Source: Nereida ignava
Lineage (GTDB): Bacteria; Pseudomonadota; Alphaproteobacteria; Rhodobacterales; Rhodobacteraceae
Assembly (NCBI RefSeq): GCF_001049735.1
Contig: NZ_CVPC01000009.1
Coordinates: 62,001-126,000, forward strand
Length of the DNA: 64,000 bases
Direction: 5' to 3'
Positions within the stretch are counted from its first letter, which is position 1. Every line of letters begins with the position of its first letter. Below the pieces are notes generated by a model. It saw nothing but the letters and a program-made list of their open reading frames with translations. It searched no databases and was not told where the DNA came from. The translations under genes and the position numbers were made by a program. Of the stretch, positions 33,712 through 53,069 are shown in pieces.

Positions 33712-33865
33712 ATCGGATCCCTTGGGTAATCGAGGGTTGAAACTATCTCACAGGCACGCCCTAATGGCATCGCTTGCGATGTGTATCGCTGGCAGGTGCC
33801 ACACTCAGGCGGCTCTGTCAAAGTGATTCCGTCGCAATGTGGCTAGGATGGGCAGAATTCAGGCA

Positions 33866-34555
33866 ATGACGACACTTGTTTTGGAAGGTGATCCTGTTGT
33901 GCGGGTCCATTTGCGGCGCTCTGCGCGGGCGCGGCGGCTGTCACTTCGGGTTTCTCGATTGGATGGTAAGGTCAGCCTGACAGTGCCGACACGCGCGCCT
34001 GAGCGTGAAGCACTGGCTTTTCTGCGCGAAAAAGAAAATTGGTTGCGGCACCAATTGGCGGACCAACCGGTTGAGCAAATCGTTGGGATGGGTGCGCAAG
34101 TCCCGCTTGGCGGTCAACTTTTTGAGATCGTTCAGGGGCAGGGCCGTAGGATTAGTATTCAGGGTGCTCAATTGCAGGTGCCTGGACGCGCTGAAACGGC
34201 CGGTGCGCGTGTGCAGGGGTATCTCAAGGCGCAGGCGCGGCTGGTCCTGCACCGCGAAGTTGAGCAATTTGCGACAACCTTGGGTAAGCCGTTTGGCCGT
34301 ATCACGTTGCGCGATACCAGATCACGTTGGGGCTCATGCTCGTCCACTGGGAATTTGAATTTCAGTTGGCGCTTGGTTATGGCGCCGCCAAATGTGTTGT
34401 CATACGTGGCAGCCCATGAAGTGGCGCATCTTGCACAGATGAACCATTCCGAGCGTTTCTGGCGGGTTTGCGAAGAACTCTTCGGCCCCTACAAGGCTGA
34501 ACGCGCATGGTTGCGCACCGAGGGCACCGCATTGCACCGATACCGATTTGGATGA
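33866..34555 (+). CDS. YgjP-type M48 metallopeptidase (DUF45)
   Basis: 229 residues. The zinc site is AAHEVAHLAQMNHSERFW: H-E-x-x-H plus a third His. Before it comes RDTRSRWGSCSSTGNLNFSW, the DUF45/WLM family signature. The start is uncertain among ATG 33866, ATG 33848 and GTG 33839; 33866 has CAGG four bases upstream. Cytosolic metal-dependent protease of unknown target. Divergent from the FYDLN-acid gene. Confidence 0.8.
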   Translation: MTTLVLEGDPVVRVHLRRSARARRLSLRVSRLDGKVSLTVPTRAPEREALAFLREKENWLRHQLADQPVEQIVGMGAQVPLGGQLFEIVQGQGRRISIQGAQLQVPGRAETAGARVQGYLKAQARLVLHREVEQFATTLGKPFGRITLRDTRSRWGSCSSTGNLNFSWRLVMAPPNVLSYVAAHEVAHLAQMNHSERFWRVCEELFGPYKAERAWLRTEGTALHRYRFG

Positions 34556-34570
34556 TTGACGAAGGCTGAC

Positions 34571-34584
34571 TTTGTGATCACAAA
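34571..34584. promoter_or_regulatory. Autoregulatory operator of the GntR regulator (TGTGATCACA type)
   Basis: TTTGTGATCACAAA is a perfect 14-bp palindrome ending 6 bases before the regulator's ATG. The core TGTGATCACA recurs in pairs upstream of sucC and sdhC. Lying over the expected ribosome-site and start region, it would act as an autorepression site. Confidence 0.7.
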
Positions 34585-35307: not shown

Positions 35308-36696
35308 TTAGGCGTGGATCGCGCCGTCACCACAAGCAAGTGCCGCTTCGCGCACAGCCTCGGAGTAGGTGGGGTGTGCGTGGCAGGTACGTGCAAGGTC
35401 TTCTGCAGCCGCACCAAACTCCATGGCCACGCAAATTTCGTGCAACAAATCACCGGCCATTGGCCCAATGATGTGCGCACCCAAAATGCGATCTGTTTGT
35501 GCATCAGCCAGAATTTTCACAAAGCCATCGGCTGCAAAGTTTGCTTTTGCACGACCGTTGCCCATGAAGCTGAACTTGCCCGCTTTGTAGCTGCGACCTT
35601 GCTCCTTCAGGCTCTCTTCGGTTTCGCCGACTGAAGCCACTTCAGGGTGGGTGTAAATCACACCTGGGATGACGTTGTAGTTCACGTGCGGGTGCTGACC
35701 TGCAAGCCCTTCTGCGACTGCCATGCCTTCATCTTCCGCTTTATGCGCAAGCATCGGGCCTTCAATGGCGTCACCAATTGCATAGATGCCTGCGACATTG
35801 GTGGCGTAGTTGGCGTTCGTTTTGATCTGGCCACGGTCACTCATTTCAACGCCAAGCGCTTCTAGCCCCAAACCATCGGTGAACGGCTTACGGCCCGTTG
35901 CCACAAGTACCGTGTCCGCGTCGATCGTTGTTTCGCTATCGTCTTTGCGGGATTTGTAGGTGACTTTCGCCTTGTTGCCTTTGACTTCAACACCTTGAAC
36001 AGCAGCACCAAGTGTGAAGGAGATGCCTTGCTTGGTCAGCAGTTTTTGGAAGGTGCGCTGGACCTCGGCGTCCATGCCGGGTGTGATGACGTCAAGGAAC
36101 TCAACAACTTCAACTTCTGCGCCAAGGCGGGCGTAGACAGAGCCCAACTCAAGTCCGATGACACCTGCGCCAATCACAACAAGCTTTTTCGGGATTTTGG
36201 GCAGTTCAAGCGCGCCAGTGCTGTCCACAACGATCTTTTGGTCAACTTCGATACCGGGCAGGGCCGATGGTACGGAGCCTGACGCGATGATGATGTTTTT
36301 GGAGCTATGCACCTCGTCACCAACTTTTACCTGACCGGCTGCAGGAATGCTGCCCCAGCCTTTGAGCCAATCGATTTTGTTCTTTTTGAACAAGAACTCG
36401 ATGCCTTTGGTGTTGGTTTCGATTGTGTCGCTTTTGTAGGACTGCATCTGCTTCCAATCAACGGAAGGTGCTTTGCCCTTGAGGCCCATAGCCGCAAAGT
36501 TGTGCTCTGCTTCGTGCAGCATATGTGACGCGTGCAGCAGGGCCTTTGACGGGATGCAGCCAACGTTGAGGCACGTGCCGCCAAGCGTATCGCGGCCTTC
36601 AACAACAGCGGTTTTGAGGCCCAATTGGGCACAGCGGATTGCACAGACATAGCCGCCGGGGCCGCTGCCGATTACGATGACGTCATAGTTGGCCAT
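35308..36696 (-). CDS. lpd: Dihydrolipoyl dehydrogenase (E3)
   Basis: FAD enzyme that reoxidises lipoyl groups of 2-oxoacid dehydrogenases with NAD; 462 residues. FAD motif [16 protein letters not shown], redox-active disulfide [16 protein letters not shown]-binding [19 protein letters not shown], and the catalytic His-Glu in [13 protein letters not shown] at the C-terminus. Last gene of the sucC-sucD-sucA-sucB-MAPEG-lpd operon, so it mainly serves 2-oxoglutarate dehydrogenase. Confidence 0.95.
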
Positions 36697-36712: not shown

Positions 36713-37102
36713 TTAAATGAGGGCAGCGATTAGCATCGCAACAGTTGCGCCAAAACCAACCACCCAGATGTAGCTGCGCCACGGCACAAGGCCCTGAACA
36801 TAGGCAGGCACGTAGAGCAGGCGAGCGATCAGATAGATGTGCGCGCAGGCTTCGGTGAATGGGCTGGATTGATCCGAGAGCGTCACCACAACCACAGCAA
36901 TGGTGAACATGATCAACCCTTCGAAGTGGTTGTTCATGGCGCGTTGCAGACGCCCTGCGGTGCCTTGCAGTTCAACTTTCTTGTCGCGCGGTGACATGGC
37001 GGCTTTTGTACCGACCTGCATTTGCGCGGTGATTGAATAGAGCGTGAACTGAACAACCTGCAAAAGGGCCGCGAGGGTGAGGACGTAAATCTCTGTAGTC
37101 AT
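36713..37102 (-). CDS. MAPEG family membrane protein
   Basis: 129 residues with four predicted helices. [20 protein letters not shown] matches the MAPEG signature (membrane-associated proteins in eicosanoid and glutathione metabolism). Such proteins in bacteria may be glutathione transferases, but no activity can be assigned. It lies between sucB and lpd in the TCA operon (16 bp from lpd), so it is transcribed with 2-oxoglutarate dehydrogenase genes; why is unknown. Confidence 0.82.
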
Positions 37103-37178: not shown

Positions 37179-38681
37179 TTACAGATCCATCAGCAGACGA
37201 CGTGGGTCTTCCAGCGCTTCTTTGACGCGCACGAGGAACGTCACCGCACCTTTGCCGTCAACGATACGGTGATCGTAGGACAACGCCAGATACATCATCG
37301 GACGGATCACCACTTGACCATTGATCGCCATCGGACGGTCTTGGATTTTGTGCATGCCCAAGATGCCTGACTGTGGGGGGTTCAAGATGGGCGAAGACAT
37401 CAGCGAGCCGTAGACACCACCGTTCGAGATGGTGAATGTGCCGCCTTGCATTTCGGCCATGCTTAGCTTGCCGTCACGGGCGCGCGCCCCTTTTTCAGCA
37501 ATCGCTTTCTCGATGCCTGCAAAGCTCATGGCGTCTGCATCGCGAATAACGGGCACAACCAAACCAGTTGGCGTACCTGCGGCAATGCCCATGTGGACGA
37601 AGTTTTTGTAGACGATGTCTGTGCCGTCAATTTCTGCGTTCACTTCAGGAACTTCGCGCAGGGCGTGGATACAGGCTTTGGTGAAGAACGACATAAAGCC
37701 AAGTTTTACACCGTGCTTTTTTAAGAACAGGTCTTTGTATTCGTTGCGCAGCGCCATCACCTCGGTCATGTCGACCTCGTTGTAGGTGGTCAGCATCGCG
37801 GCGGTGTTCTGGCTGTCTTTCAAACGCTTCGCGATGGTCTGACGCAGGCGTGTCATCTTCACGCGTTCTTCGCGGGATGCGTCGTCTGCTGAAACCGGTG
37901 CGCGTGGCGCGGATGGGGCGGCCGCAGTGGCGGCTGGTGCAGATGCGATTGCTTTCATAACATCTTCTTTCATAATCCGTCCGTCGCGGCCTGAGCCGGT
38001 AACTTGGTCTGCAGACATGCCTTTTTCGGCCATCAGTTTTTTGGCAGAGGGCGCGTCTTCAACGTCTTTGCCAGATGCGGCTGGCGCAGGAGACGCTTCG
38101 TCTTTGGCTGCGGGCGCAGATGAAGCAGCACCCGAGGCGCCACCGATCACGGCCAGTTTCGCTGTTGCATCCACAGTCGTGCCTTCGGTTGCGATGATTT
38201 CTGACAACACACCCGCGGCAGGGCTTGGAACTTCGACGCTGACTTTGTCTGTTTCCAGCTCACACAGCATCTCGTCTTGCGCGACAGTGTCGCCCACTTT
38301 TTTGAACCATGTCGACACAGTCGCTTCGGTCACGCTTTCGCCCAATGTGGGCACCATGACGTCGACGGCTTGTGGTGCGTCACCTGCGTCGGCCTTGGGT
38401 GCAGCATCCGCCTTTGGGGCGTCTGTATCGCCCGCAGGCTTGGCATCACCCGCGCTGATTTGTGCCAACAAGGCATCGACGCCAACGGTTTCACCTTCAG
38501 GCGCCACGATCTCGGACAATGTGCCTGCAGCGGGGCTTGGTACTTCGACGGTTACTTTGTCTGTTTCCAGCTCGCACAGCATTTCGTCAACGGCCACTGC
38601 GTCGCCCGGCTTTTTGAACCAGGTTGCAACAGTTGCTTCGGTGACTGATTCACCCAGTGTAGGAACACGAACTTCGGTCAT
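37179..38681 (-). CDS. sucB: Dihydrolipoamide succinyltransferase (E2o) with two lipoyl domains
   Basis: Core enzyme of 2-oxoglutarate dehydrogenase that passes the succinyl group to CoA; 500 residues. Two nearly identical lipoyl domains stand in tandem (about 1-77 and 107-181), each with the lipoyl-lysine in ELETDKV (K42 and K146). Then comes an E1/E3-binding domain (about 208-245, ending [15 protein letters not shown]) and the acyltransferase domain with [13 protein letters not shown] at the C-terminus. E. coli SucB has one lipoyl domain; two are seen in some alphaproteobacteria. Start overlaps the sucA stop by 1 bp. Confidence 0.95.
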
Positions 38682-41647
38682 TATTTCTTTCCTTTGATCG
38701 TCAGGGCTTCGTCCACAAGGGCGGCCTGTTGTGCTTTGTGCGCGCTTGCCAAACCTGTGGCTGGCGATGCGGATGTTGCGCGGCCAACATAGGCCGGACG
38801 TTTTGATTTTGCGCCAATCCGCTCAAGGACCCACTCAATGTTGGGTTCGATGAATGACCATGCGCCTTGGTTCTTGGGCTCTTCCTGACACCACACCATG
38901 TCAGCACCTTTGAAGCGCTCCAGTTCTTTGACCAGCGACATCGCGGGGAACGGATAGAACTGTTCAATGCGCAACAGGTACACATCATCAAGGCCGCGCG
39001 CGTCGCGTTCTTCGAGCAGGTCAAAGTAGACCTTGCCTGAACACATCACCACGCGCTTGATCTTATCATCAGCGGCCAGTGTCAGCTCAGAGTTGCCTTG
39101 TTGTGCGTCATCCCAAAGTACGCGGTGGAAGGACGAGCCGGTCGTAAAGTCCTCGCGTGTGCTGACAGCCATTTTGTGGCGCAACAGCGATTTCGGCGTC
39201 ATCATCACCAGCGGCTTGCGGAAGTCACGGTGCAGTTGACGGCGCAGGATGTGGAAATAGTTAGCTGGCGTGGTACAGTTTGCCACGATCCAGTTGTCAC
39301 CGCCGCACATTTGTAAGAACCGCTCAAGACGCGCCGAGGAGTGCTCGGGGCCTTGGCCTTCATAGCCGTGTGGCAACAACATAACGAGGCCGGACATCCG
39401 CAGCCACTTGCTTTCGCCAGAGCTGATAAACTGATCGAACATGATCTGTGCACCGTTGGCGAAATCGCCAAATTGTGCTTCCCAAAGTGTCAGCGCGTTA
39501 GGCTCCGCCAAAGAGTAGCCATATTCAAAGCCAAGCACCGCGTATTCAGACAGCATCGAGTCGATCACTTCGTACTGTGATTGGCCCTCGCGAATGTTGT
39601 TCAGCGGGTAGTAGCGATCTTCGGTATCTTGGTTGATCAGGCCAGAGTGGCGGTGGCTAAATGTGCCACGTGTACTGTCTTGGCCAGATAAACGAACAGG
39701 GAAGCCTTCGGTTAGCAAAGAGCCAAACGCAAGCGCTTCACCGGTTGCCCAATCAATGCCTTTGCCTGCACCAAGTGCCTTCTTTTTAGCGTCCAGCATA
39801 CGCTGCACAGTCTTATGAAGCGGATAGCCCTCAGGCGCGTGTGTCAGCGCGTTCGCTACTTCATCAAAAGTCTCATCCGCGATGCCTGTAGTGCCGCGCT
39901 GATAGTCATCACCATCGCGACGGTCGAGGTGCGACCAGCGGCCATCAAGCCAATCTGCTTTGTTCGGTTTAAAGTCTTTTCCGGCCTCAAACTCGGTGTT
40001 GAGCATGGACTGGAACGCGGCTTTCATATCCTCGATTTCGCCTTCGGGAATGAGGCCGTCTTTCACCAAACGATCCGTATAAAGCGTCAGAGTTGTCTTT
40101 TGCTTTTTGATCTTTTTGTACATCAGCGGGTTTGTGAACATGGGCTCGTCGCCCTCGTTATGTCCGAACCGGCGATAGCAAATAATGTCGAGAACCACGT
40201 CCTTGTGGAACTTCTGGCGGAACTCTGTTGCCACTTTCGCAGCGTGGACCACGGCCTCTGGGTCGTCGCCGTTCACGTGGAAAATTGGCGCTTCAACCAT
40301 TAACGCGATGTCAGTGGGGTATGGTGATGAGCGGCTAAAGTGCGGTGCAGTTGTGAAACCAATCTGGTTATTCACAACGATGTGCATCGTGCCGCCTGTG
40401 CGGTGGCCGCGCAGACCAGAAAGGCCAAATCCTTCGGCGACCACACCCTGACCGGCAAATGCCGCATCACCGTGCAGCAAGATGCCCATGACGGCTGTGC
40501 GGTCTGTGTCGTTCAGTTGGTCCTGCTTGGCACGCACTTTACCCAAAACGACAGGGTTCACGGCTTCAAGGTGCGAGGGGTTTGCGGTCAGTGACAAGTG
40601 TACATCATTGCCGTCAAAGGACCGGTCGGATGATGCACCAAGGTGATACTTAACGTCACCTGAACCGTCCACGTCCTCGGGCTTGAAGCTGCCGCCTTGG
40701 AATTCGTTGAAAATGGCGCGGTAAGGTTTGCTCATGACATTTGCCAAAACAGACAAACGGCCACGGTGGGGCATGCCCACGATGATCTCGCGCAGGCCCA
40801 GTTGGCCGCCGCGCTTGATGATTTGCTCCATCGCGGGGATCAAGCTTTCACCGCCATCAAGGCCAAAACGCTTGGTGCCCATGTACTTCACATGCAGGAA
40901 TTTCTCAAAGCCCTCGGCCTCAACCAACTTGTTAAGGATCGCTTTACGGCCTTCGCGGGTGAACTGGATTTCTTTGCCCAGACCTTCGATGCGCTCTTTT
41001 AGCCAGCTCGACTCTTCGGGGTTTGAAATGTGCATATACTGCAGCGCAAAAGTGCCACAGTAGGTCCGCTTCACGATATCAACGATCTGACGCATGGTTG
41101 CGATTTGCAGACCAAGCACGTTGTCGATGAAAATTGGGCGGTCCATGTCGGCGTCAGTGAAGCCGTAGGATTTCGGGTCAAGCTCTGGGTGCGCGGTTGT
41201 CTCGCGCATGCCGAGTGGATCAAGATCAGCAGCAAGGTGGCCGCGAATACGGTAGGCACGGATCAGCATTAGCGCGCGAATGCTGTCCAAAACTGCGCGC
41301 TGGATGGCGTCATTGCTGACTTCAACACCCGCGTCGGCGGCTTTGTCTGTGATTTTCTTGGCTGCTGTTTTCGCTTCGGCAGGCGCTGGATACTCGCCAG
41401 TGATCGCAGAAGTCAGATCATCGTGCGGCATGGGGGGCCAGTCTGCACGCGCCCATGATGGCCCGCTTGCTTCGGCTTTTACATCAAGTTCCGCATCGCC
41501 AAGTGCGCGAAAGAATTCCTGCCACGCTTCGTCCACTGCGTTGGGATCGTTGGCATATTGAGCGTAAAGCTGCTCGAGATATTCCGCATTGTGCCCCTGC
41601 ATAAACGAGGATGCATGGAATTGATCATTCGCGGGGTGGTCGGTCAT
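38681..41647 (-). CDS. sucA: 2-oxoglutarate dehydrogenase E1 component
   Basis: Thiamine-diphosphate enzyme that decarboxylates 2-oxoglutarate and loads the lipoyl arm; 988 residues. The N-terminal flexible segment for E2 docking is seen ([19 protein letters not shown]), then [33 protein letters not shown] and [19 protein letters not shown] for thiamine diphosphate and substrate, and the C-terminal RIEQFYPFP. It is directly followed by sucB. A strong hairpin in the gap before it may tune expression relative to sucCD. Confidence 0.96.
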
Positions 41648-41726: not shown

Positions 41727-42608
41727 TTAGCCGATGGCTTCTTTAACGGCTTCGCCCAAAGTCGCGGGGCTGTCCGCAACGATGATACCCGCAGATTTCA
41801 TGGCTTCGATTTTGCTTTCCGCATCACCTTGGCCACCGGCAACAATCGCGCCAGCGTGGCCCATGCGACGGCCGGGAGGTGCCGTGCGGCCAGCAATAAA
41901 GCCAGCGGTTGGTTTCCAGCGGCCTTTCTTGCGTTGCTCTGCGAGAAACTCGGCTGCTTCTTCTTCGGCTGTACCGCCGATTTCACCGATCATGATGATT
42001 GAGTGCGTCTCATCGTCATCAAGGAACATGTCCAGCACGTCGATGTGCTCGGTGCCTTTGATGGGGTCACCACCGATGCCAACAGCCGTAGATTGGCCGA
42101 GGCCCATATCAGTTGTTTGCTTCACGGCTTCGTATGTGAGCGTGCCAGAGCGTGACACAACACCCACGCTGCCGCGACGGTGAATATGGCCGGGCATGAT
42201 GCCGATTTTGCAAGCGTCCGGAGTGATTACACCGGGGCAGTTCGGGCCAACAAGACGTGATGTTGATCCCTCAAGCGCACGCTTGACGCGCATCATATCA
42301 AGCACAGGAATGCCTTCGGTGATGCAAACGATCAGCGGCATATTTGCGTCAATTGCTTCCAGAATACTGTCTGCCGCAAAGGGGGGCGGCACATAGATCA
42401 CGGACGCGTTTGCTTCTGTGACGTGCATTGCTTCGTGCACAGAGTTGAAGATTGGCAGATCAAGATGCGACTGACCACCTTTGCCGGGTGTTACGCCACC
42501 AACCATTTTGGTGCCGTAAGCAATCGCCTGCTCGGAGTGGAAAGTACCTTGGCTGCCGGTCAAACCCTGACAGATGACTTTTGTGTTTTCGTTAATAAGG
42601 ACGGCCAT
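41727..42608 (-). CDS. sucD: Succinyl-CoA ligase subunit alpha
   Basis: Catalytic subunit of succinyl-CoA synthetase, 293 residues. CoA-binding fold at the N-terminus ([20 protein letters not shown]), [21 protein letters not shown], and the phospho-accepting His in [13 protein letters not shown]. Forms the alpha/beta enzyme with SucC that makes ATP or GTP from succinyl-CoA. 73 bp from sucC. Confidence 0.96.
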
Positions 42609-42681: not shown

Positions 42682-43875
42682 TTAGCCCTTCACCGCCTTA
42701 ACGATTTTCTGAGCACCATCTTTGAGGTCGTCAGCAGCAATCACATCAACGTCTGAGTTGTTGATGATCGCCTTACCTTGCTCAACGTTGGTTCCTTCAA
42801 GACGCACAACCAGCGGTACTTTCAGGCCAACTTCTTTCACGGCTGCAACAACGCCTTCCGCAATAACATCACAGCGCATGATGCCGCCGAAGATGTTAAC
42901 CAAGATGCCTTTGACGTTCGGGTCAGATGTGATGATCTTGAACGCTTCGGTAACTTTCTCTTGGGTAGCGCCGCCACCCACATCGAGGAAGTTTGCAGGC
43001 TCTGCACCGTAAAGCTTGATGATGTCCATCGTTGCCATGGCAAGACCAGCGCCGTTAACCATACAACCGATTTCACCGTCGAGTGCGATGTAGTTGAGGT
43101 CAAATTTGGACGCCGCAAGTTCTTTGGGGTCTTCTTCAGTTTCATCACGAAGGGCCGCGATATCAGCGTGGCGATAGATCGCGTTGCCGTCAAAGCTGAC
43201 CTTGGCATCAAGCACCTTAAGATCACCGGCATCAGTTACGATCAGCGGGTTGATCTCCAGCATCTCCATGTCTTTTTCCATGAAGGCTGTATAAAGCTGG
43301 CCCATCAATTTGACGCACTGCTTAACCTGCTGACCTGTAAGGCCGAGTGTGAATGCGATACGGCGACCGTGATACGCTTGGAAACCTGTTGCAGGATCAA
43401 CGCTGAACGACAGGATTTTTTCAGGGGTCGCTGCTGCTACTTCCTCAATGTCCATACCGCCTTCGGTTGAGCACACGAATGATACGCGGCTTGTTTGGCG
43501 GTCAACGAGTAGGGCAAGATACATTTCCGTTTCGATGCCGGAACCGTCTTCGATGTAGATGCGGTTTACTTGCTTACCTGCGGGGCCTGTTTGGTGTGTC
43601 ACCAATGTGCGGCCCAACATGCGTTTTGCTTCTTGTGCTGCTTCTTCAGCAGATTTTGCCAAACGTACACCACCAGCTTCGCCAGCGTCGGCTTCGACAA
43701 ATTTACCTTTGCCGCGTCCGCCTGCGTGAATTTGTGCTTTTACAACCCAAAGCGGGCCGTCCATTTCACCTGCGGCTGTTTTTGCGTCTTCGGCTTTGAG
43801 AACGGCACGGCCATCACTCACTGGGGCACCGTAAGTGCGCAACAAGGCTTTGGCCTGATATTCGTGGATATTCAT
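42682..43875 (-). CDS. sucC: Succinyl-CoA ligase subunit beta
   Basis: Nucleotide-binding subunit, 397 residues with an ATP-grasp domain ([20 protein letters not shown] at the start, [17 protein letters not shown] for nucleotide binding) and a C-terminal flavodoxin-like CoA ligase domain ([20 protein letters not shown]). First gene of the sucC-to-lpd operon. Two TGTGATCACA palindromes lie 98-130 bp upstream, so the operon is probably under GntR control. Confidence 0.96.
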
Positions 43876-43972: not shown

Positions 43973-44007
43973 TTTGTGATCACAGCTGAAAAAAGTGTGA
44001 TCACAAA
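43973..44007. promoter_or_regulatory. Paired TGTGATCACA operators upstream of sucC
   Basis: TGTGATCACA at 43975-43984 and again at 43996-44005, centres 21 bp apart (two DNA turns), with a T-rich 11-bp spacer when read toward sucC. The same arrangement stands upstream of sdhC. Confidence 0.72.
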
Positions 44008-44062: not shown

Positions 44063-44092
44063 ATAAAAAGGCGCCCCAAAATGGAGCGCCTT
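44063..44092 (-). terminator. Terminator of mdh
   Basis: AAGGCGC (44068-44074) pairs with GCGCCTT (44086-44092), with extra CC/GG pairs inside. Read on the minus strand it ends GCGCCTTTTTATATT. It isolates mdh from the sucC promoter. Confidence 0.85.
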
Positions 44093-44113: not shown

Positions 44114-45115
<1,002 letters not shown>

Positions 45116-49133: not shown

Positions 49134-49164
49134 TGTGATCACAGATTTTTCGTGTGTGATCACA
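49134..49164. promoter_or_regulatory. Paired TGTGATCACA operators upstream of sdhC
   Basis: TGTGATCACA at 49134-49143 and 49155-49164, centres 21 bp apart with a T-rich 11-bp spacer, exactly as at sucC. They lie 150-180 bp before the sdhC start. A 12-bp palindrome TTTTTCGAAAAA (49165-49176) follows at once. Confidence 0.72.
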
Positions 49165-49313: not shown

Positions 49314-49697
49314 ATGGCCGATGTAAACCGTGGCAATCGCCCGCTTTCGCCGCATTTGGCAATTTACCGTCCTCAGTTGACGTCAATGACGTCGATCCTG
49401 ACGCGGATTACTGGCAATGCACTCTTGATCTCAACTTTGCTTGTCGTGTGGTGGTTTTTGTCCGCTGCTATTTCGCCGGAGTACTTTGCGTACGCTGACG
49501 GTGTTCTGACCAGCTGGTTTGGCGACATTGTATTGACGCTTTCTGTGTTGGGCCTTTGGTACCACACGCTGGCCGGCCTGCGTCACCTTATCTGGGATAT
49601 GGGATACGGCCTTGAGGTGGAGCAGGCTGAAAAAATGGGCATCGTCTGCCTCGTTGGATCAGTCGTTCTGACCCTAATCACCGTCCTCGTCGTTTAA
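49314..49697 (+). CDS. sdhC: Succinate dehydrogenase cytochrome b556 subunit
   Basis: Membrane anchor of complex II, 127 residues with three helices. NRPLSPHLAIYRPQLTSMTS is the SdhC signature, and the haem-ligand His is in WYHTLAGLRHLIWDMG. Takes part in ubiquinone reduction with SdhD. First gene of sdhC-D-A-lipoprotein-B; AAGGGAAC precedes ATG 49314. Confidence 0.95.
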   Translation: MADVNRGNRPLSPHLAIYRPQLTSMTSILTRITGNALLISTLLVVWWFLSAAISPEYFAYADGVLTSWFGDIVLTLSVLGLWYHTLAGLRHLIWDMGYGLEVEQAEKMGIVCLVGSVVLTLITVLVV

Positions 49698-49712: not shown

Positions 49713-50084
49713 ATGGCTTATTTGACAGATCGTAAACGCGCCGCTGGACTTGGGGCTGCGAAGACAGGCACGGAACATCATTGGTCCATGATGGTTTCCT
49801 CTGTGGCGCTGCTTTTGCTGGTCCCACTATTCGTTTTCACCGTTGGTCCCGTAATCGGCAGTAGCCACGGCGAAATGGTCGCATATTTTGCAAAACCTTT
49901 TCCTGCTATTGTAGCGGCACTCACACTAACCGTGGGTTTGATGCACTTTAAGAATGGTGCACAGACCCTGATCGAAGACTACGTACACGGCCCCGCTAAG
50001 AAGCTGACAATCATTGGTGTGATTTGTCTCAGCTACGCGGCCGCTGGAACCGCCCTTTTCTCAATCGCGCGCATCGCGCTGTAA
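49713..50084 (+). CDS. sdhD: Succinate dehydrogenase hydrophobic anchor subunit
   Basis: 123 residues with three helices. TEHHWSMMVSSVALLLLVPL at the N-terminus and GLMHFKNGAQTLIEDYVHG are typical of alphaproteobacterial SdhD, the second His region being the haem/quinone side. Stop is 15 bp before sdhA. Confidence 0.94.
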   Translation: MAYLTDRKRAAGLGAAKTGTEHHWSMMVSSVALLLLVPLFVFTVGPVIGSSHGEMVAYFAKPFPAIVAALTLTVGLMHFKNGAQTLIEDYVHGPAKKLTIIGVICLSYAAAGTALFSIARIAL

Positions 50085-50099
50085 TATCGGAGCACCCTC

Positions 50100-51905
50100 A
50101 TGACTGCATACGATTACGAAACACACGAATATGACGTAGTTGTCGTTGGCGCCGGTGGCGCCGGCCTGCGTGCAACGCTTGGTATGGCCGAGCAGGGCCT
50201 GCGTACGGCTTGTGTAACCAAGGTTTTCCCAACCCGCTCGCACACGGTTGCAGCGCAGGGTGGCATCGCGGCCTCTTTGTCTAACATGGGCCCTGATAAC
50301 TGGCAGTGGCACATGTATGACACCGTCAAAGGATCTGACTGGCTGGGTGATACAGACGCGATGGAGTATCTGGCGCGCGAAGCACCCAAGGCCGTTTATG
50401 AGCTTGAGCACTACGGTGTGCCTTTCTCACGGACCGAAGAAGGTAAAATTTACCAACGCCCGTTTGGTGGTCACACAACCGAATTCGGTGAAGGCCCGCC
50501 CGTGCAGCGTACCTGTGCGGCCGCCGACCGTACTGGTCACGCGATTTTGCACACGCTTTACGGTCAAAGCCTGAAGAACAACGCCGAGTTCTACATTGAG
50601 TATTTCGCAATTGACTTGATCATGTCCGATGACGGTCAGTGTCAGGGTGTTCTGTGCTGGAAGCTTGATGACGGAACACTGCACCTGTTCAGCGCGAAGA
50701 TGGTCGTTCTGGCCACCGGCGGTTATGGCCGTGCATACTTCAGCGCAACGTCTGCCCACACATGTACTGGTGACGGTGGCGGTATGGTTGCCCGTGCTGG
50801 ATTGCCATTGCAGGACATGGAATTTGTTCAATTCCACCCAACTGGTATTTACGGCGCAGGTTGCCTCATTACAGAAGGTGCGCGCGGCGAGGGTGGTTAT
50901 TTGACCAACTCCGAGGGCGAGCGCTTTATGGAGCGTTACGCGCCAACTTACAAAGACCTTGCCAGCCGTGATGTTGTTTCGCGCTGCATGACGATGGAAA
51001 TTCGTGAAGGCCGCGGTGTTGGGGCAGAAGGCGATCACATCCACCTTCACCTGAACCACTTGCCAAAAGAAACGCTTGATCTGCGCTTGCCCGGTATTTC
51101 GGAATCCGCACGGATTTTTGCAGGCGTTGACCTGACCAAAGAGCCGATCCCAGTGCTTCCAACTGTGCACTACAACATGGGCGGCATTCCAACGAACTAT
51201 TGGGGTGAAGTTCTTGCCCCGACCAAAGATAATCCTGACAACGTGGCACCGGGCCTTATGGCCGTTGGTGAAGCAGGTTGTGCGAGTGTTCACGGTGCAA
51301 ACCGTTTGGGCTCAAACTCACTGATCGACTTGGTTGTGTTCGGTCGTGCCGCTGCGATCCGTGCGGCGGAAGTTGTTGACCCGAAAACGCCTGTCCCAAC
51401 GCCGAACCAACGTTCTGTAGAAGCTGCGATCAGCCGCTTTGACGGGTTGCGTTATGCCAAAGGTCACGTGCCAACCGCTGAGCTTCGGCTTGATATGCAA
51501 AAGACAATGCAGTCAGACGCAGCCGTGTTCCGTACAGACAAAACTCTGGCGGAGGGTGTTGAAAAGATGAACGACGTTGCCGCACGCATGAGCGATGTTC
51601 AGGTGACCGACACATCAATGGTTTGGAACTCAGACCTGATGGAAACGCTTGAGCTTGGTAACCTGCTGCCAAACGCAGTTGCTACTGTTGTTGCCGCTGA
51701 GGCGCGCAAGGAATCACGTGGTGCACACGCCCACGAAGATTATCCGGACCGTGACGACGAGAACTGGCGCAAGCACAGCCTTGTTTGGTTCGAGGGTATG
51801 AAGGCGGGCTTGGGCTATCGCGGTGTTCACCTGAATCCATTGACCAGCCATAACGACGGCGGCATCGACCTCAAGAAAATCGCGCCAAAGGCACGTGTCT
51901 ACTAA
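50100..51905 (+). CDS. sdhA: Succinate dehydrogenase flavoprotein subunit
   Basis: Catalytic subunit that oxidises succinate to fumarate, 601 residues. FAD site [20 protein letters not shown], covalent FAD His in [16 protein letters not shown], active-site region [20 protein letters not shown] and the Arg-rich [14 protein letters not shown]. Full length. Confidence 0.97.
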
Positions 51906-51948: not shown

Positions 51949-52278
51949 ATGATCCGTGCTGCGCTTTGCCTTTCTGCGGTGCTGGCCCTTGGTGCCTGTG
52001 ACAAAGCCGAGCAGGCCGTCGATAAAGCGGCCCGTACAACGGCCAAAGCCGCTGTGGATGAGGTCCTCGTAACGCAGTTTCCGTTTATCCCGAAGAACCA
52101 GATCACACCCTATTCTGACTGTGTGATCGATAGTGCATCATCTGGTGAAATTCTGTCACTGACCCGCGACGCGATTGGTCAAATCAGTCAGAGCACTTTG
52201 AACACGGTTCAAACCATCCTCACACGACCTGAAGCGATTAAGTGTATCGCCGAAGCGGGTCTGACAACTCAAGGCTAA
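51949..52278 (+). CDS. Lipoprotein encoded inside the sdh operon
   Basis: 109 residues with a lipobox (LALGAC, acylated Cys at about position 17) after a short signal peptide. The mature part is helical and Ala/Lys-rich, then has two Cys (SDCVIDSA and IKCIAEAG) that could form a disulfide. It lies between sdhA (43 bp) and sdhB (11 bp) and must share their transcript. I recall an uncharacterised gene at this place in Rhodobacter sphaeroides too. A role in complex II biogenesis is possible but untested. Confidence 0.75.
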
Positions 52279-52289
52279 GGAGAAATTCC

Positions 52290-53069
52290 ATGGTTCAACT
52301 ACGCCTCCCTAAAAACAGCCGCATGACCGCAGGCAAGACTTGGCCCAAGCCTGAAGGCGTGACCAACCTGCGCAAAGTTCAAGTGTACCGTTGGTCGCCT
52401 GATGACGATAAGAACCCCGCACTTGATACGTATTGGGTTGATATGGACACCTGTGGACCGATGGTTCTGGATGTTCTGATCAAGATCAAAAACGAGATTG
52501 ATCCGACGCTTGCGTTCCGCCGTTCATGCCGCGAGGGCATCTGTGGATCGTGCGCCATGAACATTGATGGCATCAACACACTTGCGTGTATTTACGGTGC
52601 CGATGAAGTGAAGGGTGATATCAAAATTTACCCTCTGCCGCACATGCCTGTTATCCGCGATTTGATCCCTGACCTGACACACTTTTATGCGCAGCACGCA
52701 AGCATCATGCCGTGGCTCGAAACAAAAACGAACCGCCCTGCAAAAGAGTGGCGCCAGTCGATTGAAGACCGCAAGAAGTTGGATGGTCTCTATGAATGCG
52801 TAATGTGCGCGTCATGTTCAACGTCATGCCCATCCTACTGGTGGAACGGCGACAAATACCTTGGGCCAGCAGCATTGTTGCATGCGTATCGCTGGATCAT
52901 TGATAGCCGCGATGAAGCGACAGGCGAGCGCTTGGATGATCTTGAGGATCCGTTCAAGCTGTATCGCTGCCACACCATTATGAACTGTGCAAAGACCTGC
53001 CCGAAGGGATTGAACCCAGCGAAAGCCATTGCGTCTATTAAGCAAATGATGGTTGAGCGCACCGTCTAG
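52290..53069 (+). CDS. sdhB: Succinate dehydrogenase iron-sulfur subunit
   Basis: Electron-transfer subunit of complex II, 259 residues. 2Fe-2S ligands in CREGICGSC plus a later Cys in NTLAC; 4Fe-4S ligands in [16 protein letters not shown]; 3Fe-4S ligands in [20 protein letters not shown] 52290 has AAGGAG upstream; the in-frame extension into the lipoprotein gene is rejected. Followed by a strong terminator. Confidence 0.97.

Follow-up and report, generated by a model that had tools for sequence, protein, structure and literature searches.

The window analysed here is a stretch of 64,000 nucleotides from Nereida ignava, a member of the Rhodobacteraceae, in which the genes for succinate-CoA ligase, 2-oxoglutarate dehydrogenase and succinate dehydrogenase are found close to a gene for a GntR-family regulator, akgR (Table 1). 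On the minus strand sucC, sucD, sucA, sucB and lpd follow each other, and a gene for a MAPEG-family membrane protein sits inside this 2-oxoglutarate dehydrogenase operon; on the plus strand the sdh genes are arranged in the order sdhC, sdhD, sdhA and sdhB. The family match of the latter covers residues 42-274, and hence its true start is probably later than the start of the ORF. Upstream of sucC the intergenic region extends to the 3′ end of mdh (44114-45076, minus strand), and as a terminator-like hairpin parts mdh from the sucC promoter region, the palindromes found in between most likely serve sucC-sucD-sucA-sucB-(MAPEG)-lpd.

These palindromes were first pointed out in a sequence-only reading of the same DNA, which had claimed two perfect 10-bp palindromes with centres 21 bp apart within 43973-44007 and the same word at the nearby GntR gene and at sdhC. 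Exact matches to TGTGATCACA were indeed found at the positions claimed upstream of sucC, and a single exact copy stands before the GntR gene. For sdhC the presence of the word was borne out, but not its occurrence as a single copy, as two exact copies form a second pair there, again with a spacing of exactly 21 bp.

Table 1. Genes, predicted operators and putative promoter elements of the suc-sdh region in the window, in order of position.
Feature	Position	Strand	Basis and remarks
Putative -35 of akgR, TTGACG	34556..34561	+	sequence; 35 bp upstream of the ATG
Predicted single AkgR operator at akgR	34573..34582		exact TGTGATCACA; ends 8 bp before the start codon; overlaps the putative -10
Putative -10 position of akgR, CACAAA	34579..34584	+	partly within the operator; from 17-bp spacer arithmetic; assumes transcription from the A of the ATG
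akgR, GntR-family regulator with FCD domain, 216 aa	34591..35241	+	Pfam PF00392 and PF07729; ortholog of the R. sphaeroides gene taken as RSP_0981
lpd, dihydrolipoyl dehydrogenase	35308..36696	-	NCBIfam; convergent with akgR
MAPEG-family membrane protein, between sucB and lpd	36713..37102	-	Pfam PF01124
sucB, dihydrolipoyllysine succinyltransferase	37179..38681	-	NCBIfam
sucA, 2-oxoglutarate dehydrogenase E1	38681..41647	-	NCBIfam
sucD, succinate-CoA ligase subunit alpha	41727..42608	-	NCBIfam
sucC, succinate-CoA ligase subunit beta	42682..43875	-	NCBIfam; first gene of the target operon
Predicted AkgR operator, proximal at sucC	43975..43984		exact TGTGATCACA; 100 bp upstream of the sucC ATG
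Predicted AkgR operator, distal at sucC	43996..44005		exact match; 21 bp from the proximal copy
Terminator-like hairpin behind mdh	44068..44092	-	1 found against 0.3 expected
Predicted AkgR operator, distal at sdhC	49134..49143		exact TGTGATCACA
Predicted AkgR operator, proximal at sdhC	49155..49164		exact TGTGATCACA; 21 bp from the distal copy
sdhC	49314..49697	+	NCBIfam
sdhD	49713..50084	+	NCBIfam
sdhA	50100..51905	+	NCBIfam
sdhB (ORF as listed)	52242..53069	+	NCBIfam

With no or one mismatch to TGTGATCACA the window holds seven matches against 2.5 expected, a number reached in one of 100 shuffles. The whole genome (2.88 Mb, 69 contigs) contains seven exact copies, five of which are those at the three promoters of the window, and the remaining two are located on contig C11 within long ORFs (310 and 254 aa). 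For five of seven random points to fall within 14.6 kb a probability of ~7e-8 was calculated analytically, and none of 2,000,000 simulations produced such a cluster, so that the random scatter across the genome by which the sequence-only reading could have been refuted was not encountered. By count, the 10-mer as such is not over-represented: at up to one mismatch 132 places were found in the genome, 125 of them with exactly one mismatch, i.e., about four for each of the 30 neighbouring words. The significance of TGTGATCACA therefore lies in clustering, position and pairing and not in its raw count. In Nereida sp. MMG025, of the same genus, both pairs and the operator at akgR are present as well.

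Conservation and spacing of the operator pair

With up to two mismatches the pair was recovered in 163 of 198 Rhodobacteraceae genomes (197 genera), and the reversed control in none of the 198. Genomes with a clear GntR ortholog (E <1e-50) possess the pair in 160 of 177 cases, compared with three of 21 genomes in which the GntR relative is weak or absent (Fisher 3e-13); the line at 1e-50 was set after viewing the list and falls into a gap between 1.4e-47 and 1.1e-58. Among the 35 genomes without a pair at this stringency, five display one when three mismatches are allowed, and each of these five has a clear ortholog. Of these, the pair of G058 alone was placed, namely at sucC, and the three-mismatch pairs of G155, with mismatches in the core, may be due to chance. 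When the sucC promoters of the 35 genomes were inspected, the pair was detected in 11 of 11 genomes with ortholog and true sucC (ten at 20 bp, one at 21 bp with three mismatches) and in none of 16 with a true sucC and no clear ortholog. Genomes without a true sucC were left out (G061, G122, G147, G155, G166 and G190 with a strong ortholog, G021 and G172 with a weak one). Combined, the usable genomes have the pair in 171 of 171 cases where the ortholog is clear and in three of 19 where it is not (Fisher 1e-20, not corrected for shared ancestry). In this tally a pair at any place in the genome sufficed for the 160 strong-ortholog genomes, and the sucC promoter decided for the 11 and 16 others.

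The three exceptions (G019, G096 and G114) have pairs, and the GntR relatives in their assemblies are only 35-36% identical or weaker; the assemblies consist of 210, 50 and 320 contigs with a completeness of 91, 77 and 100%, respectively. In G109 an akgR-like gene (locus L295, G109:C56 1489-2096) is broken across frames and sucC keeps one altered copy of the operator, which looks like a joint decay of akgR and the pair, an assembly error being possible too. On the level of the order an exact-core pair at 20 or 21 bp was found in 147 of 149 genomes, a sample which comprises Rhodobacteraceae only and partly overlaps the earlier genome set. On the level of the class the pair occurred in five of five Rhodobacteraceae versus two of 332 genomes outside the family, and the reversed control matched in one of 337 genomes (G271, five times). 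One of the two pairs outside the family (G344, L230 991-1021) has the same core and a spacing of 21 bp and lies before a GntR gene whose product is 29% identical to AkgR, with TonB-receptor-like and short-chain-dehydrogenase-like genes, named from sequence alone, as neighbours; the other is located inside an ORF.

The first 30 pair loci fetched were found at sucC (23), sdhC (6) and sucA (1). Of 56 sucC pairs 46 show a spacing of 21 bp and ten a spacing of 20 bp; at sdhC 21 bp was counted 35 times, with one extra combination at 57 bp, and pairs at 20 bp are present in G219 and G055. Since the 21-bp pattern served to pick loci L040-L069 and L190-L229, and its absence to pick L080-L109, these spacing counts, as well as the invariance of the core in 45 sucC sequences, are partly a matter of construction. 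The 80 akgR loci were not selected by spacing and include eight sucC pairs, all at 21 bp; where at least 260 bp upstream of sucC were available, four of four had the pair, with 21 bp as the best spacing in a scan from 10 to 40. Runs of T or A flank the outer sides of the sucC pairs, and the proximal site is situated 96-154 bp (sucC) or 107-191 bp (sdhC) upstream of the start codon. The earlier claim that the spacing puts two regulator dimers on the same face of the DNA thus holds, as centres 20 or 21 bp apart, bar the 57-bp combination and in loci mostly selected by spacing, place two dimer sites two helical turns from each other on one face. In two genomes (G135, L248; G191, L249) three sites stand in a row upstream of sucC, each 21 bp apart.

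Identity of the regulator and extent of the regulon

AkgR was reportedly defined in a study in mBio in 2015, the abstract of which is said to describe it as an activator in R. sphaeroides. Passages of a further study predict that RSP_0981 controls RSP_0967-6, 0974-6 and 0965-62 in that species and give sucCD, sucAB-lpd and sdh as predicted AkgR targets (PMC4344238), and in passages of another study GTGATCAC is listed among the AkgR binding sites (PMC6365646). The protein encoded in the window carries both the GntR helix-turn-helix and the FCD domain above cut-off and is 75-76% identical to the best of 13 GntR matches in genome G051, whereas other GntR matches in its own genome are only 24-25% identical to it. 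G051 was taken as R. sphaeroides 2.4.1 because three published RSP_0489 ChIP motifs are located in it inside the published chromosome-1 peaks, as given in the excerpted Table 3 of PMC4344238. The akgR ortholog of this genome lies about 0.75 kb past sdhB, as the gene numbers predict for RSP_0981, and it was on identity and position, rather than on a tag read off an annotated record, that the assignment was based. The GntR protein of the window is an ortholog of AkgR.

Motif and targets point in the same direction. Five exact copies of GTGATCAC stand at the three promoters of the window, and the comparison with the published AkgR motif that the sequence-only reading had proposed ended in agreement of the core (passages of PMC6365646). 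The pairs before sucC-sucD-sucA-sucB-lpd and sdhCDAB match the published predicted targets. The idea of a compact tricarboxylic acid cycle regulon of the AkgR type was likewise upheld, as the 75% ortholog, the reported motif, the predicted targets and the co-occurrence of motif and regulator across the family agree with each other. The palindromes are very probably operators of AkgR, a previously described regulator of energy-metabolism genes; this reading is supported and mostly already known. The loci of the window extend the known AkgR regulon by a new member and add to it the conservation of the tandem geometry and, probably, a loop of autorepression.

Compared with the AkgR (RSP_0981) regulon of R. 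sphaeroides, the orthologous GntR-FCD protein, the GTGATCAC core, the targets and the 21-bp pairs in both the sucC and the sdhC promoter (in G051) are shared. The position of akgR differs: in the window it is found tail to tail with lpd and has an operator of its own, whereas in R. sphaeroides it lies past sdhB and has no such site. By sequence, which alone was compared, the nearest solved relative is McbR (PDB 4p9f; E 5.5e-24 against the AkgR profile), which we take to come from another organism and to belong to another regulon. PS417_07240, a GntR protein of Pseudomonas simiae which is 32% identical to AkgR, resembles it in having a GTGATCAC palindrome before its own gene, but is concerned with deoxyribonate oxidation, and its description, in the passages at hand, mentions a single site, from -47 to -40 relative to the start codon, and no tandem pair (PMC6365646).

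With regard to the extent of the regulon, the expectation that a genome-wide scan would reveal further genes such as gltA, acnA, icd or fumC was disappointed: in a search by motif, not by gene name, no third pair was present in the whole genome at up to three mismatches, and the other exact copies are in ORFs. In one relative, a 21-bp pair stands upstream of fumC (L073, G042:C16, 2793-2823; gene named from its sequence), which indicates that the regulon can grow. There are 23 further places with TGTGATCAC in the genome. At 18 of them the site falls within a frame whose codon score, taken over its whole length, exceeds 10. The five others have scores of 10 (C15), 6 (C37), -5 (C36), -6 (C45) and -13 (C18:19936), with local codon scores around the site of +17 for C36 and +15 for C37. 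The 18 also include places at which the best frame scores below zero locally (C2:163769, C11:12127, C11:26763). A few intergenic single TGTGATCAC sites, with unnamed flanking ORFs, may therefore be hidden among these five and some of the 18. Extra single copies of GTGATCAC were noticed near or inside sdhC or sdhD in relatives (L244 of G125 at 1174, L233 of G075 at 764, L239 of G219 at 1265).

The promoter of akgR

Upstream of akgR in the window TTGACG is followed by 17 bp, CACAAA, 6 bp and the ATG. CACAAA is a weak match to a -10, and a scan for the sigma-70 consensus reported no promoter here. The arrangement is widespread in the family: 70 of 80 loci, and 23 of 30 further loci, partly of the same genomes, have an operator (up to one mismatch, or exact core) just ahead of the akgR start codon, and in 60 of the 70 the distance to the start codon amounts to 7-9 bp. 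In 57 of these 70 loci the operator follows the first base of TTGAC at a distance of exactly 17 bp, and in 55 of the 67 loci having TTGAC this box is found 34-36 bp before the start codon. A gene for a YgjP-like metallopeptidase (33839-34555) directly precedes akgR in the window, with 35 bp between them, and many relatives have a long open frame, probably that of the YgjP-like gene, which stops at the TGA within the TTGAC box. An explanation of the conserved TTGAC as the mere stop codon of an upstream gene is countered by the 17-bp distance: of 25 loci in which this TGA closes no open frame of at least 120 codons, 23 keep that distance; the 120-codon line was of our own choosing, and as three of the 25 frames run over 66-108 codons, a few shorter ones may be real genes.

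The promoter of R. sphaeroides akgR retains the TTGAC box 36 bp before the ATG and has no operator within 300 bp (best match with four mismatches). As the operator is missing there and in ten of the 80 loci, autorepression would not be universal. Where it is present, the position of the operator between TTGAC box and start codon suggests an akgR promoter that is leaderless and autorepressed. The literature passages covered, a scope outside of which the original AkgR description in mBio 2015 lies, contained no statement on such a loop.

Possible activation, repression and self-limitation

In the explanation we prefer, two AkgR dimers would occupy each tandem pair of sites, separated by two turns of the helix (21 bp in the window) and facing the same side of the DNA, and the bound pairs would recruit RNA polymerase upstream of the sucC and sdhC promoters, in neither of which a sigma-70 consensus was found in the window. 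Succinyl-CoA synthetase, 2-oxoglutarate dehydrogenase and succinate dehydrogenase would thereby be switched on jointly. At akgR, a single dimer over the putative -10 of the leaderless promoter would block polymerase, and AkgR would in this way limit its own synthesis. Binding by the AkgR of the window, cooperative activation, leaderless start and autorepression are what we infer, with motif, activator role and predicted targets taken from the R. sphaeroides literature. As a whole, i.e., AkgR operators with tandem activation at sucC and sdhC and autorepression at akgR, this explanation is considered highly likely. The more specific proposal of a dual-mode AkgR, in which dimers bound in tandem and in phase would switch on the operons for making and using succinate and a single dimer would jam its own leaderless core promoter, in an architecture kept across most of the family, is somewhat favoured.

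The main alternative is that the pairs are operators of a repressor and AkgR holds sucC and sdhC off until a metabolite releases it. GntR proteins usually work by such metabolite-released repression, repressors are numerous among GntR-FCD proteins, and the operator at akgR, overlapping the putative core promoter, has the geometry of one. The location of -10-like hexamers relative to the centre of the proximal operator bears on the choice between the two modes: a -10 at +10 to +14, if real, would let the proximal operator cover the promoter spacer and suit repression over classical activation, and one at +28 to +36 would suit a classical activator. Weak excesses were detected at +10 to +14 in both promoter sets (sdhC 8/35, P 0.026; sucC 14/56, P 0.022) and at +28 to +36 for sdhC (9/35, P 0.034) but not for sucC (11/56, P 0.16), these being six windows without correction for multiple testing. 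In a scan by position the best count for sdhC was 5/35 at +12 (95% of the shuffle maxima were 4 or lower, the largest 6), and that for sucC, 5/56 at +13, was not above shuffles. Given these ambiguous positions, our confidence in the explanation as a whole and in the dual-mode proposal was slightly lowered and that in repression slightly raised. However, the proximal sites lie far upstream of the start codons at sucC and sdhC alike (distances above), the lack of a sigma-70 consensus at either window promoter fits activation, and AkgR is termed an activator in the passages of PMC6365646. Repression at sucC and sdhC is thus regarded as unlikely.

TGTGA and TCACA are CRP-like half sites, which in CRP sites keep 6 bp between them, and RSP_1663 is presumably the regulator later named CceR. 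It could be assumed that one of these, a CRP/FNR-type or the LacI-type protein, reads the palindrome in place of AkgR, in particular as RSP_1663, a regulator of central carbon metabolism, is predicted to control sdh in R. sphaeroides, as AkgR is (passages of PMC4344238). However, the half sites abut in all five copies, by which CRP/FNR sites of the form TGTGA-N6-TCACA are rejected, and RSP_1663 differs from AkgR in protein family and motif, its inverted repeat GTT N6-8 AAC (passages of PMC4344238) being a form that the palindromes, when read by eye, do not have. Furthermore, among genomes without the 21-bp pair but with a true sucC, the pair follows the ortholog (11/11 with it, 0/16 without), the motif is present at the GntR gene itself, and a Pseudomonas relative of AkgR is proposed to use GTGATCAC too (passages of PMC6365646). 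Another regulator is therefore very improbable. That the words arose by chance or as a general genomic repeat without function, as the unremarkable genome-wide count might suggest, is ruled out by their clustering, by a paired spacing kept throughout the family and absent from the reversed control, and by the location of the first 30 pair loci exclusively at suc or sdh genes, and its probability is negligible.

With activation by tandem AkgR dimers and self-limitation at akgR as the preferred reading, a single regulator is linked, together with three promoters and an operator geometry fixed at two turns, to the central oxidative pathway in a large family of bacteria, and testable predictions are given with the spacing rule, the autorepression and the leaderless start. 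If the reading is true, a negative loop would be present in most Rhodobacteraceae loci examined and absent from the model species R. sphaeroides, and hence would have been missed there. The results further suggest that in newly obtained Rhodobacteraceae genomes the sequence by itself may suffice to read AkgR control, also for the minority of the family that appear to have lost the AkgR system.
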